A stretch of 64,000 bases of DNA, taken from assembly GCF_900105725.1 (NCBI RefSeq), contig NZ_FNLM01000036.1, positions 682,001 through 746,000 on the forward strand, given 5' to 3'. The stretch's first letter is position 1, and every line of letters starts with the position of its first letter. The DNA comes from Gordonia westfalica. Lineage in GTDB: Bacteria > Actinomycetota > Actinomycetes > Mycobacteriales > Mycobacteriaceae. Position numbers and translations under genes: made by a program. The notes under the pieces are model-generated. The model ran no database searches. It saw only the letters and a list, made by a program, of their open reading frames with translations, and had not been told where the DNA came from. Below, in pieces: positions 1-3,056 of the stretch.

Positions 1-159
1 TGGACCGGACTGGTTTTCGCCGACGGCAAGCGCTGGCCGGTGGAGAAGAGCTGCTGGACCTCCGCGGCCGTCGTCCTGGCGGCCGACGCCGTGAGTCGCA
101 CCAGCGTCGCCAACGGCATCTTCCGCGACGTGCGGCAGCGGCTGGCCGTCGCGCCCTAG
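1..159 (+). CDS. C-terminal end of an unidentified protein (cut by window edge)
   Basis: An open frame runs in from the window edge to a TAG stop at 157-159 and gives the last 52 residues of a protein. The tail is Trp-rich (WTGLVFADGKRWPVEKSCW) with a helical stretch SAAVVLAADA after it, which could be the last helices of an alpha/alpha-barrel enzyme, but I cannot assign a family. The REP-like array starts 9 bases after the stop, so the gene ends its transcription unit here. Confidence 0.6.
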   Translation, partial: WTGLVFADGKRWPVEKSCWTSAAVVLAADAVSRTSVANGIFRDVRQRLAVAP

Positions 160-168
160 GCGGACCGT

Positions 169-359
169 CGCTCCCTGGAATGCGAGGAGCGCAAGCGTCC
201 CCGTCGCTCCCTGAGGTGCGAGGAGCGCAAGCGCCCGGGTCGCTCCCTGAGGTGCGAGGAGCGCAAGCGCCCGGGTCGCTCCCTGAGGTGCGAGGAGCGC
301 AAGCGTCCCCGTCGCTCCCTGAGGTGCGAGGAGCGCAAGCGTCCCCGTCGCTCCCTGAG
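169..359. repeat. 36-bp tandem REP-like array, interrupted by an IS110 element
   Basis: The motif CGCTCCCTG starts at 169, 205, 241, 277, 313 and 349, an exact 36-base period. Each unit reads CGCTCCCTGAGGTGCGAGGA, then GCGCAAGCG and a short variable linker. The sixth unit stops after CTGAG at 359, where the IS110 element begins, and the missing part resumes at 2066. Relatives occur at 24675-24912, 27916-28018, 31572-31638, 40132-40159 and 58476-58565, always between genes or at IS borders. There are no unique spacers, so this is not a CRISPR array. Open frames on both strands here arise only because 36 is a multiple of 3. Confidence 0.9.
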
Positions 360-630
360 CAGCCTATGAGGGTTGTGTCAATTGGGTCCTGTGGTGGGTG
401 TGGGCGTGGGGGTGTGTCCCGTCGGCCTGGGTGGCTGCGGGTGTGTGGCGGGGTTGAGGTTTGATCGGCCGGGGTCGATGCCGGGCGTGTGCTCTACCTA
501 GCGGGCAAACGGGTTGGTACCCAACAGCCTTCATTCGAGCTTGGTTCACGCCGGGCGGGGACTGCTCAGGCTCAGGGTCGGGTTTGTTCCCAAGGTGCGG
601 CGAGCTTGTCCCGGTCGCAAGGGGTGAGGG
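360..630 (-). ncRNA. candidate bridge/seek RNA region of the IS110 element
   Basis: This 270-base end has no convincing gene. In plus-strand coordinates CTCAGGG (571-577) is the reverse complement of the left target half plus core (CCCTG-AG). AGGTGCG (593-599) is identical to core plus right target half (AG-GTGCG). A hairpin GGG-TTTGTT-CCC (580-591) lies between them. This is the layout of a target-binding loop in IS110-family guide RNAs. GCTCTACCTAGCG (491-503) matches the predicted donor junction at 9 of 13 positions, and CAGCCT near 523 matches the other donor side. The segments are seen in the sequence; that an RNA is made is inferred, and its ends are unknown. Confidence 0.5.
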
Positions 631-1977
631 TCAGGCGGCGGTCCTTTCTGCGGGTCGGGTACGGCCGGCGGCGATGTCGGGGTTCCACGGGGTGGCGGTG
701 GTGATGACGACGAACAGTTGGCGGAGCAGTGCTGCGGCGATGGCTACCCGGGCTTGGTTGGGTTTGAGTGTGCTGGTTTCTCGGTTGGTCAGGTGTCGGT
801 AGCGGGTGGCGTAGACCTCGTTGTGGGTGAGTGCGGCGAACGCCGCTCGCCAGGCCGCGACTCGTAACAGTGGTCGGCCGCGGCCGCTGATGGTGGTGGT
901 GCCGCGGTAGGCGCCGGAGGAGTTTTCCCGGGGGCACAGGCCGGCGTGTTTGACTACCGCGCGTGCGGAATCGAAGCGGGCGAGGTTGCCTGTTTCGGCG
1001 AGGATCGCCGCGACCGACACTTTGGAGACGCCGGGGATGGAACCGGCCAACTCGTCCAGGCCGAGGTCGGTGAGGACGGCGAGCATGTGGGTTTCGGCGG
1101 TGTCGCATTGTGTGGCGGCGTGCTGGTAGTCGCCGAGGGCGTAGTGGGCCCGTTCCAGCGCCCCGGCCTCGATCGGTTGGTTACCAATGTCGAAGGCGGT
1201 GTCGATGATCGCGGTCAGGATGCGGTTGTTGATCCGGCGGGCACCCCAGTGGGGCAGTTCGGTGCGTACCCGTTCACGCAACTGGGTGGCGGCGTGGTCG
1301 CGGTCTCCCAGCGAGGTCACCGCGGTCGGGTCGCAGCCGCTCACGGCCATCGTGGCCAGCCAGGTCGCCGAGTCCAGCGGCCGGCGGGCGCAGTCGAGGG
1401 CGTGCGGCCAGGCACTGTCGAGCATGTCGCGGACTTGTTGGCGTGCTGCGCCTCGGCGGGTGAGTTGTTGAGCGCGGCGCACGCCGAGGTGACGGAGCCG
1501 GGTCCACTGTTCCTCGGCCGGCTCGGGCAGATAGATGTGGAGTTGAGTGGTCAATCGCGCGATCAGCAGAGCATCTTTGTCATCGGATTTGTCGTGGGTG
1601 AAGTCTTCGGTCTCACGAGCCCGCGCGACGGCGATCGGTTGGACACACACCACCGCCACGCCGACCGCAGCAGCAAGGTCGCGCACCGTTTTCCAGCGAT
1701 GCCCGGTCGGCTCACACGCGAGGACAATGCCGGCGAACCCGGCAGCGGTGGCATGGGTGCGGCTCCACTCGATCGCGGTGGCCAACTGCCGTGGCGCACA
1801 GTGAAAGGTTCTGCGTGCCACGATGCGGGAGTCGTGATCGGTGACAGCCACGACTTGTTTGTTCGCGGCCAGATCGATCGCGACGACCGCGTAGTCGCGC
1901 CGCACGATGCCACGGAATCGACTGATCCGATCGTTACGACGCTTGTCTCCTCGACTCAAACGACTAGCCTGAGACAT
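631..1977 (-). CDS. IS110-family DEDD transposase
   Basis: The 448-residue protein has the N-terminal RuvC-like DEDD domain (VVAIDLAANKQVVAV near the start, then CEPTGHRW and HDKSDDKDALLIARL) and the C-terminal transposase_20 domain (SIPGVSKVSVAAILAETG, HAGLCPRENSSG). It should recombine element ends with target DNA under guide-RNA control. Two ATGs are possible: one at 1983 lies directly on the Shine-Dalgarno AGGAGG, so the ATG at 1977, 6 bases after it, is preferred. The frame looks intact, so the element may be active. Confidence 0.9.
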   Translation of the reverse strand: MSQASRLSRGDKRRNDRISRFRGIVRRDYAVVAIDLAANKQVVAVTDHDSRIVARRTFHCAPRQLATAIEWSRTHATAAGFAGIVLACEPTGHRWKTVRDLAAAVGVAVVCVQPIAVARARETEDFTHDKSDDKDALLIARLTTQLHIYLPEPAEEQWTRLRHLGVRRAQQLTRRGAARQQVRDMLDSAWPHALDCARRPLDSATWLATMAVSGCDPTAVTSLGDRDHAATQLRERVRTELPHWGARRINNRILTAIIDTAFDIGNQPIEAGALERAHYALGDYQHAATQCDTAETHMLAVLTDLGLDELAGSIPGVSKVSVAAILAETGNLARFDSARAVVKHAGLCPRENSSGAYRGTTTISGRGRPLLRVAAWRAAFAALTHNEVYATRYRHLTNRETSTLKPNQARVAIAAALLRQLFVVITTATPWNPDIAAGRTRPAERTAA

Positions 1978-1978
1978 T

Positions 1979-2037
1979 GACATCCTCCTTTTGTGGTTGG
2001 GATAACCAAGCCCTTACGACCACAACAGGAGGATGTC
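1979..2037 (-). promoter_or_regulatory. hairpin enclosing the transposase ribosome binding site
   Basis: The arms 1979-1997 and 2019-2037 are 19 bases long and pair with one mismatch across a 21-base loop. The proximal arm contains the AGGAGG of the transposase. In a transcript entering from outside the element both arms would be present and the ribosome site would be masked. A promoter inside the loop or proximal arm would give an open message. This limits transposase made from read-through, as known for IS10 and IS50; its use here is inferred. Confidence 0.6.
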
Positions 2038-2065
2038 CCAGTTACCAGCCCTTCCAGCTATTACT

Positions 2066-2101
2066 AGGTGCGAGGAGCGCAAGCGACGAGCCTCGAAGGG
2101 C
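2066..2101. repeat. right-hand remainder of the REP-like unit split by IS110
   Basis: AGGTGCGAGGAGCGCAAGCG continues directly into ACGAGCCTCGAAGGGC. It completes the unit broken at 359 and adds the GAGCCTCGAAGGG tail that closes many copies of this family. Joined to 169-359 it restores a sixth unit. Confidence 0.85.
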
Positions 2102-2133
2102 AAACCCCTGGTCTCTGTGGCGCCCATCACCTA

Positions 2134-2148
2134 GACTGGTGTCCAGTC
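2134..2148. promoter_or_regulatory. short palindrome upstream of the LLM gene
   Basis: GACTGG-TGT-CCAGTC is a perfect 6-bp inverted repeat with a 3-base centre, 50 bases before the LLM start codon. It could be a regulator site in the promoter. No regulator gene is adjacent. Confidence 0.35.
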
Positions 2149-2198
2149 AACCGTCCGGTTCTGTCGAGGCGGTACGCAACGGCGCCCGGGGAGGCCTC

Positions 2199-3056
2199 AT
2201 GGATTTCGGAATCGTGCAGTTCACCAGCGATCGCGGCCTCAAGCCGCACATCCTGGCGCCGCTGATCGAGAATGCCGGCTTCGCGTCGTACTACGTTCCC
2301 GAGCACGGGCACATCCCCACCCGTCGCGACGCCGCGCACCCGCAGACCGGTGACGAGACCCTGCCCGACGACCGGTACATGCGCACCCTCGACCCGTGGA
2401 CGTCGCTCTCCGCCGCGGCCGCCGTCACCGAACGCATCCGCTTGGCGACCGCTGTGGCGCTGCCGGTGCAGTCCGACCCGATCACGCTGGCCAAGACCAT
2501 CGCCACCCTCGATCACATCTCCGACGGTCGGGTGACTCTCGGCGTCGGCTTCGGGTGGAACCTGGACGAGCTCTCCGATCACAACGTGCCGCCGAAGCGG
2601 CGTCGGACCATGCTGCGCGAATACCTCGAGGCGATGCGGGCCCTGTGGACGCAGGAAGAGGCCGAGTACAGCGGCGAGTTCGTGAACTTCGGACCGAGCT
2701 GGGCCTGGCCCAAGTCGACGCAGGCGCACATCCCCGTGCAGGTCGGTGCGGCCGGCAACGAGAAGAACTTCAAGTGGATCGCCCGCAGCGCCGACGGCTG
2801 GATCACCACGCCGGGCGAAGAGGACATCGAGGGCTCCGTCGCACTGCTCAAGCAGATCTGGTCCGACGCCGGTCGCGAAGGTCAGCCCGACATCGTCGTC
2901 CTCGACTTCAAGCCGGTCGCGGAGAAGCTGGAGAAGTGGCGCGAGCTCGGTGTCACCACCGTGCTGTACGGCCTTCCCGACGACTCCGTGGAACGTGCCA
3001 CCGGGTACCTCGCCAAGCTGTCCGGGAAGCTGGGTCTCGTCCCGGCGGCAGTTTAG
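2199..3056 (+). CDS. LLM-class F420-dependent oxidoreductase
   Basis: A 285-residue TIM-barrel protein of the luciferase-like monooxygenase superfamily, probably using coenzyme F420. It starts MDFGIVQFTSDRG, has the family core RVTLGVGFGWNLDEL and the cofactor-side HIPVQVGAAGNE. The ATG at 2199 follows GGGGAGG at a good distance; the open frame upstream belongs to the IS border and has no ribosome site. The gene stands alone between the IS110 element and a strong terminator. The substrate cannot be told from sequence. Confidence 0.85.
   Translation: MDFGIVQFTSDRGLKPHILAPLIENAGFASYYVPEHGHIPTRRDAAHPQTGDETLPDDRYMRTLDPWTSLSAAAAVTERIRLATAVALPVQSDPITLAKTIATLDHISDGRVTLGVGFGWNLDELSDHNVPPKRRRTMLREYLEAMRALWTQEEAEYSGEFVNFGPSWAWPKSTQAHIPVQVGAAGNEKNFKWIARSADGWITTPGEEDIEGSVALLKQIWSDAGREGQPDIVVLDFKPVAEKLEKWRELGVTTVLYGLPDDSVERATGYLAKLSGKLGLVPAAV

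Follow-up and report, generated by a model that had tools for sequence, protein, structure and literature searches.

Targeting of REP sequences by the IS110 family has long been known (PMC1525189), and the closest described systems are its bridge-RNA and seekRNA elements. In the sections of the reports drawn on here, the IS621/IS110 bridge-RNA group (PMC11208160, PMC11208158) combines a DEDD/SG recombinase with an RNA whose target loop precedes its donor loop, a left target guide (LTG) pairing with the bottom strand and a right target guide (RTG) pairing with the top strand, a CT core, and insertion into dispersed repeats. The CT core was called highly conserved in IS621 and related orthologues (PMC11208158), and artificially introduced non-CT cores of IS621 generally proved less efficient (PMC11208160). 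The IS1111 group, with its seekRNA (ISEc11, ISPa11, and ISKpn4), is characterized in the corresponding part of PMC11187229 by a non-coding region downstream of the transposase gene, a subterminal inverted repeat (STIR; 7–17 bp according to PMC11208160), transposases of 330–350 amino acids, and a top-strand match situated 5′. In that same source, IS110 types have mostly an upstream non-coding region (downstream in some types), transposases of 315–455 amino acids and, in the one tested, a top-strand match situated 3′; natural redirection is described for ISMch6, a relative of ISEc21. ISPpu9 of Pseudomonas is fixed in REP sequences, where AG is directly repeated at its site, buries its ribosome-binding site in a 5′-UTR fold, and has the additional small RNAs Asr9 and Ssr9 (PMC8450116, as far as drawn on here). 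No publication on the element described below was found by title or abstract start (IS110 in actinobacteria or Gordonia, core dinucleotide, Gordonia REP), a search that left most subscription papers and bioRxiv outside its scope.

The element under study lies at positions 360–2067 of the window (the whole stretch of 64,000 nucleotides analyzed) and, as a whole, we are highly confident that it is best explained as a bridge-RNA (seekRNA) guided IS110-family element. Judged by comparative sequence, it is a member of that known class, and its non-coding end is very probably the source of a two-loop guide RNA directing the element into a dispersed host repeat. The sequences themselves display the recombinase domains, the precise insertion, the covariation between guides and flanks, the conserved two-loop structure and the covariation of the core in both loops. 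The features concerned are the following.

206–341, plus strand: four intact copies of the target repeat adjoining the element (206–233, 242–269, 278–305, and 314–341)
353–359, minus strand: right half of the interrupted target with the core, CTCAGGG on the transposase strand
360–2067 (equivalently 358–2065), minus strand: IS110-family element; joined flanks restore an intact repeat unit, and the ends agree with those of a second copy
360–630, minus strand: non-coding right end of 271 bp, lying downstream of the transposase gene
376–381, minus strand: TTGACA near the right end, a presumed −35 box once the ends join in the circle
484–612, minus strand: predicted bridge/seek RNA body (target-binding loop 612–558, donor-binding loop 552–484)
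498–502, minus strand: predicted right donor guide GCUAG, pairing with core CT and the first left-end bases (CTAGT, one G-T wobble)
525–530, minus strand: predicted left donor guide AGGCUG, equal to the terminal 6 nt of the right end
571–577, minus strand: predicted right target guide CCCUGAG, complementary to core and right target, top strand
580–591, minus strand: apical hairpin of the target loop, GGG AACAAA CCC
593–599, minus strand: predicted left target guide CGCACCU, same sense as the top strand of left target and core, pairing with the bottom strand
631–1983, minus strand: recombinase/transposase reading frame, 450 amino acids from the first ATG (PF01548, PF02371, NF033542)
1979–2037, minus strand: inverted repeat whose pairing would bury the ribosome-binding site of the transposase gene (AGGAGG, 1984–1989)
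2061–2066, minus strand: TAGTAA spanning core and left end, presumed −10-like half of a possible junction promoter
2066–2072, minus strand: left half of the interrupted target with the core, CGCACCT on the transposase strand

The element sits within the final unit of a short array of tandem repeats. Rejoining the flanks, with a single AG core retained, gave the same sequence as in the four intact neighbors, so that the position inside a repeat unit given by the initial annotation proved right and the insertion exact. The alternative bounds 358–2065 arise because the core AG stands at both ends; such a core dinucleotide at each end, together with site-specific insertion, is characteristic of the IS110 family. 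Non-coding lengths were 271 bp downstream and 82–88 bp upstream of the transposase gene.

A search of the own genome (6.4 Mb, 38 contigs) revealed a second copy (L002) in the same 12-mer, CGCACCTCAGGG, with the same ends and a 100% identical transposase, as well as a diverged copy (L003/L053; 77% DNA and 71% protein identity) and an 81-bp right-end fragment (L005, 88%). The case that the initial annotation had named against itself, the same guide segment at an unrelated site, was not encountered in the second copy, which carries that segment in the same 12-mer. These copies also bear on the reading that the element was once guided and is now inert, which is compatible with the explanation given above of how it worked and which we consider improbable: three single-base indels separate it from L002 (window positions 442, 454, and 477, all outside the guide region) and decayed relatives exist (L005, L058/L060, L105), but the reading frame is intact, the transposase is the same in two copies at two sites, no substitution distinguishes the two copies over 360–2067, and guides and promoter-like ends are intact. 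As a separate observation, the outer flank of the L005 fragment (1501–1581; G000:C34:2235658–2235738) is CTCAGGC, the target type of L053.

The reading frame 1983–631 matched PF01548 (1.5e-18) and PF02371, and reached 174.7 bits (cutoff 140) with NCBIfam NF033542, 'IS110 family RNA-guided transposase'; it thus displays the DEDD RuvC-like domain and the Tnp domain with SG that define the family. Putative catalytic residues (D37, E91, D134, D137, and S356-G357 in the 450-residue numbering) were invariant in 10 sequences, and a profile of these matched the solved structures of IS621 (8wt6; 1.2e-11) and ISCro4 (9t56; 1.5e-11), mainly in the C-terminal domain, the N-terminal stretch being weak (i-Evalue 10 vs. 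IS621). D37, E91, D134, D137, S356, and G357 aligned, with a constant offset of two, with D11, E60, D102, D105, S241, and G242 of IS621, the DEDD and SG positions named in PMC11208158. The ATG at 1977 (codon 3, 448 amino acids) is the likelier start, because the first ATG directly abuts AGGAGG.

Compared with the systems described above, the element shares with the IS621/IS110 bridge-RNA group all the features listed for it, but unlike IS621 it carries its predicted RNA in the right end, which follows the transposase gene, and has a transposase of 448–450 amino acids against 328 residues in the solved IS621 chain; in addition, its relatives use GT and AT cores, which sets them apart from what the cited part of PMC11208158 describes. 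The longer non-coding region downstream of the gene is common to the IS1111 elements with seekRNA, among which ISPa11 also targets REP sequences (PMC11187229, same part). In contrast with that group, no STIR of 7–17 bp was found in about 30 bp of each end, the longest exact one being 4 bp in the element and 4–6 bp in six relatives, no more than in shuffles; the transposase is longer (448–450 vs. 330–350 amino acids), and the guide order is reversed, with the LTG (bottom-strand match) 5′ in 13 of 13 aligned RNAs. The narrow IS110 group is matched by transposase length (315–455 amino acids), by the lack of a long STIR, and by a bottom-strand match 5′ of the top-strand one, but not by the position of the longer non-coding region, which in that group is upstream; the same holds for ISEc21, which has the guide order and the two-strand target recognition in common with the element and a non-coding region upstream of the gene (PMC11187229, same part). 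ISPpu9 resembles the element in its REP sites, its AG repeat and its buried ribosome-binding site, and differs in host and in its extra small RNAs. The downstream region, the absence of a long STIR, the 448–450 amino acids, and the 5′ bottom-strand match, taken together, make it look like an IS110-type recombinase with its RNA in the IS1111 position; the label 'IS110/IS1111' of the initial annotation needs refining, since features of both groups are mixed. Such a mixed architecture bears on the relation between the two groups.

By analogy with the mechanism of IS621, ISEc21, and the IS1111 group, from which transcription, circle formation, cleavage, and strand exchange are inferred, transcription of the right end, on the same strand as the transposase gene, would yield an RNA of about 130 nt that contains two internal loops. 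One of them would pair with both strands of the host repeat CGCAC-CT-CAGGG, CT core included, and the other with the junction formed by the two ends in the excised circle, predicted to read CATAGGCTG-CT-AGTAATAG, again including the CT core. The DEDD/Ser recombinase would then exchange strands at the core, which would lead to insertion at one fixed position of the repeat and leave the core dinucleotide at each end.

Comparative sequence displayed the traits of a bridge/seekRNA, namely two internal loops, guides for both target and donor strands, and a shared core. The motifs previously noticed were all in place (CTCAGGG at 571–577, AGGTGCG at 593–599, and the GGG-TTTGTT-CCC hairpin at 580–591 between them). 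Stems of the target and donor loops were conserved over 13 RNAs, with 24 pairs, nine of them changed on both sides; 97.4% of 312 cells were paired vs. 85.0% in shuffles, 37 cells vs. 13.5 were changed on both sides, and the covariation score was 0.331 vs. 0.116 (0/500 shuffles reached each of these values). The number of pairs changed on both sides (reached by 20/500 shuffles) and that of further pair types (209/500) were not clearly beyond the control. A slid-alignment control gave 29.8–53.3% paired, a comparison biased in favor of the structure because the latter was derived from the same alignment. Folded alone, the predicted RNA was no more stable than shuffles (z −0.05 and −0.83); with z-scores near zero, the two-loop structure rests on covariation, not on stability. 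The two conserved loops with compensatory changes were found among homologs, so that the lack of conserved RNA structure named as contrary evidence was not encountered. No Rfam match was obtained for positions 1–3000 of the window. A covariance model gave 11 matches over 29 further loci, with no RNA match at L097, and 10 matches in four of 59 genomes of the genus, which were assigned to elements or relics. As for the donor loop, the segment 491–503 previously called donor-like does hold the predicted right donor guide (498–502), but it had been scored for identity to the circle junction whereas the real relation is complementarity, a confusion hidden by the palindrome CTAG; the left donor guide (525–530) had been missed.

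Guides and flanks were compared in 15 related elements from 14 genomes, taking the guides at homologous RNA positions (7 nt each, the left one running up to and including the core, the right one up to the base opposite the first core base). The LTG matched its own flank at 6.16 of 7 positions and the flanks of other elements at 3.65, and the RTG at 6.83 vs. 3.39; with the core excluded, own vs. cross matches out of five were 4.29 vs. 2.34 for the LTG and 4.83 vs. 2.06 for the RTG, these values being reached in 0/20,000 permutations in each of the four cases, counts that overstate independence and are not probabilities because the elements share ancestry. In a reduced set of nine elements, picked by the analyst to drop close relatives, the core-excluded values were 4.33 vs. 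2.51 (LTG; 1/20,000) and 4.83 vs. 1.88 (RTG; 0/20,000). The proposed pair of target guides, one per strand and both covering the core, was supported by this covariation, which had also been suggested as a check. Not included in the test were L033 (a right end alone), the split relic L058/L060, L087 (a left end alone), the right flank of L075 (guide region interrupted), and the partial L083; L074 was represented by its left flank only.

The LTG fit was incomplete in several elements: L032 matched at 3/7 ungapped (by eye, a one-base bulge or shift would restore pairing), the G015 copies, G317, and G405 at 5–6/7 each, G048, L034, and G262 at 6/7, G139 at 6/7 in two of three sites, and G435 at 6/7 in two of four; for the RTG, G048 and G262 matched at 6/7, and G317 did so at one of two sites. 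L094–L096, L098, L100, L101, and L105 were found or examined later, L096 (contig ends) being left unscored. Among seven additional insertions or relics, to which one G1049 element contributed three copies, the RTG matched at 7/7 in six and at 6/7 in one, and the LTG at 6–7/7 in the five scored and 6/7 in the G008 relic; this scoring was not blind, flanks being visible before or with the guides, and the guide frame of L098 was chosen by eye.

Single-base retargeting was apparent within the own genome, where the element at 360–2067 has guide CCCUGAG and flank CTCAGGG, and L053 has guide GCCUGAG and flank CTCAGGC. In G015, four copies with the left guide GCUGCUCCU were located at GCTCCT (two) or GCTGCT (two), and a split relic with left guide GCUGCACCU at CGCACCT. 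The G048 element has guide GGCUGAG at flank CTCAGGC, with one mismatch, and a G008 relic, which shares its RNA from the left guide onward, has the right flank CTCAGCC, which fits its own guide in full. Recognition of the repeat by the recombinase protein itself, the target-like sequence in the end having been copied from an earlier flank, is very unlikely on this evidence. Sequence specificity alone would also give repeated insertion at the same site, and within the genus the four elements that target the repeat have most of their target in common; yet where targets differ between close relatives, the RNA differs correspondingly at fixed positions (L053 compared with the present element, and the main G015 copies with GCUCCU compared with the G015 relic with GCACCU), and the two guides, one in sense and one in antisense orientation, each extend over the core within conserved stems. 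A chance origin of the two short matches in a GC-rich end can be dismissed almost completely, since single 7-mers did occur in 4–5% of dinucleotide shuffles of 360–630 (879 and 1038 of 20,000) and the fold z-scores are near zero, but both 7-mers in this order within 40 nt occurred in just 10/20,000, and the cross-element test showed the same relation for elements whose targets are quite dissimilar.

The core was also compared among relatives. The 15 elements had CT (five), GT (seven), or AT (three) cores, the first core base being fitted by the right target guide in 15/15 and by the left one in 13/15 (not in G317 and G405). The right donor guide, CUAG, CUAC, or CUAU, was complementary to core plus AG in 17/17 elements with CT, GT, and AT cores, and the left donor guide was identical to the terminal 6 nt of the right end in 9/17 and was one base off in 8/17. 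The CT core reported as that of IS621 is thus present here but is not fixed in the lineage. We lean slightly toward the view that this lineage uncouples RNA position from guide order, two hallmarks by which the IS110 and IS1111 groups are told apart, and has naturally switched its core between CT, GT, and AT by concerted changes of the RTG, the right donor guide, and the ends; it would then be a naturally core-programmable family of RNA-guided recombinases following changing host repeats. The range of usable sites would be widened by recombinases that naturally employ GT or AT cores. One-base retargeting in one genome, guides tracking variants of the host repeat, and core switching are natural counterparts of laboratory experiments, and a well-documented actinobacterial lineage is added to the RNA-guided recombinases.

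The target repeat is dispersed, partly tandem, and of two subtypes. Its 12-mer CGCACCTCAGGG (CTCAGGG subtype) occurred 147 times in the genome (68 + 79) vs. two for the reversed control, and CGCACCTCAGGC (CTCAGGC subtype, the L053-type target) 31 times vs. three in the control. Examples in the window are found at 206–341, 24839, 24871, 27943, 27975, 31607, 58497, and 58542. Three single units folded no better than shuffles (z −0.75, −0.91, and −1.73); for this reason 'REP-like', as the target had been called, is only a label.

Joined ends would place TTGACA 17 nt before TAGTAA, a pair suggestive of a promoter across the junction of a double-stranded circle, the intermediate typical of the IS110 family; junction promoters are known for ISEc11 and ISEc21 (PMC11187229, same part). 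Ends of a similar TTGACA/TAGTAA type were present in relatives, although the recurrence of TTGAC is not an independent count because it served as the anchor in the search for right ends. The inverted repeat at 1979–2037 had a z of −4.42 (fold of 1966–2045) and was present in 15 aligned elements, including this one, with three of 14 pairs changed on both sides.

Strong protein matches (1e-60 or better) were obtained in three of 59 genomes of the genus (12/59 at 1e-3) and nine of 401 of the family, and the profile at 1e-90 matched in six of the 394 genomes sampled from the class and in 10 of the 397 from the order; the own genome is included in each count and the samples overlap. The protein search of genome contigs yielded four loci only, of which two Amycolatopsis genomes account for three and a Micromonosporaceae MAG for the fourth. 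At least 3,889 relatives at 1e-30 or better were present among 7,996 candidates scored, and several near relatives carry Gordonia names, the one hint at the Gordonia-type host proposed in the initial annotation. Two distant matches appeared in viral contigs; among plasmids nothing matched at 1e-60, and the 110 records matched at 1e-5 stayed below 60% identity even at their best place.

Two Amycolatopsis loci (L031 and L034) have a GT-core target in common and similar sequence outside the element on both sides, which suggests that this target lies in conserved, perhaps mobile, sequence. In L075 (G405:C1:4793477–4794802), an insertion-sequence-like stretch with reading frames of 97 and 279 amino acids lies apparently within the left target guide of one copy. 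A locus in G008, with an RNA match and no transposase match, was considered as a solo guide RNA and rejected, an IS3-type insertion (HTH_Tnp_1 and rve domains) having replaced the gene body. This relic, in another species of the genus (L105 and L112; G008:C1), keeps most of the RNA, the transposase body and the 5′ strand of the outer RNA stem being replaced by the IS3-type insertion.
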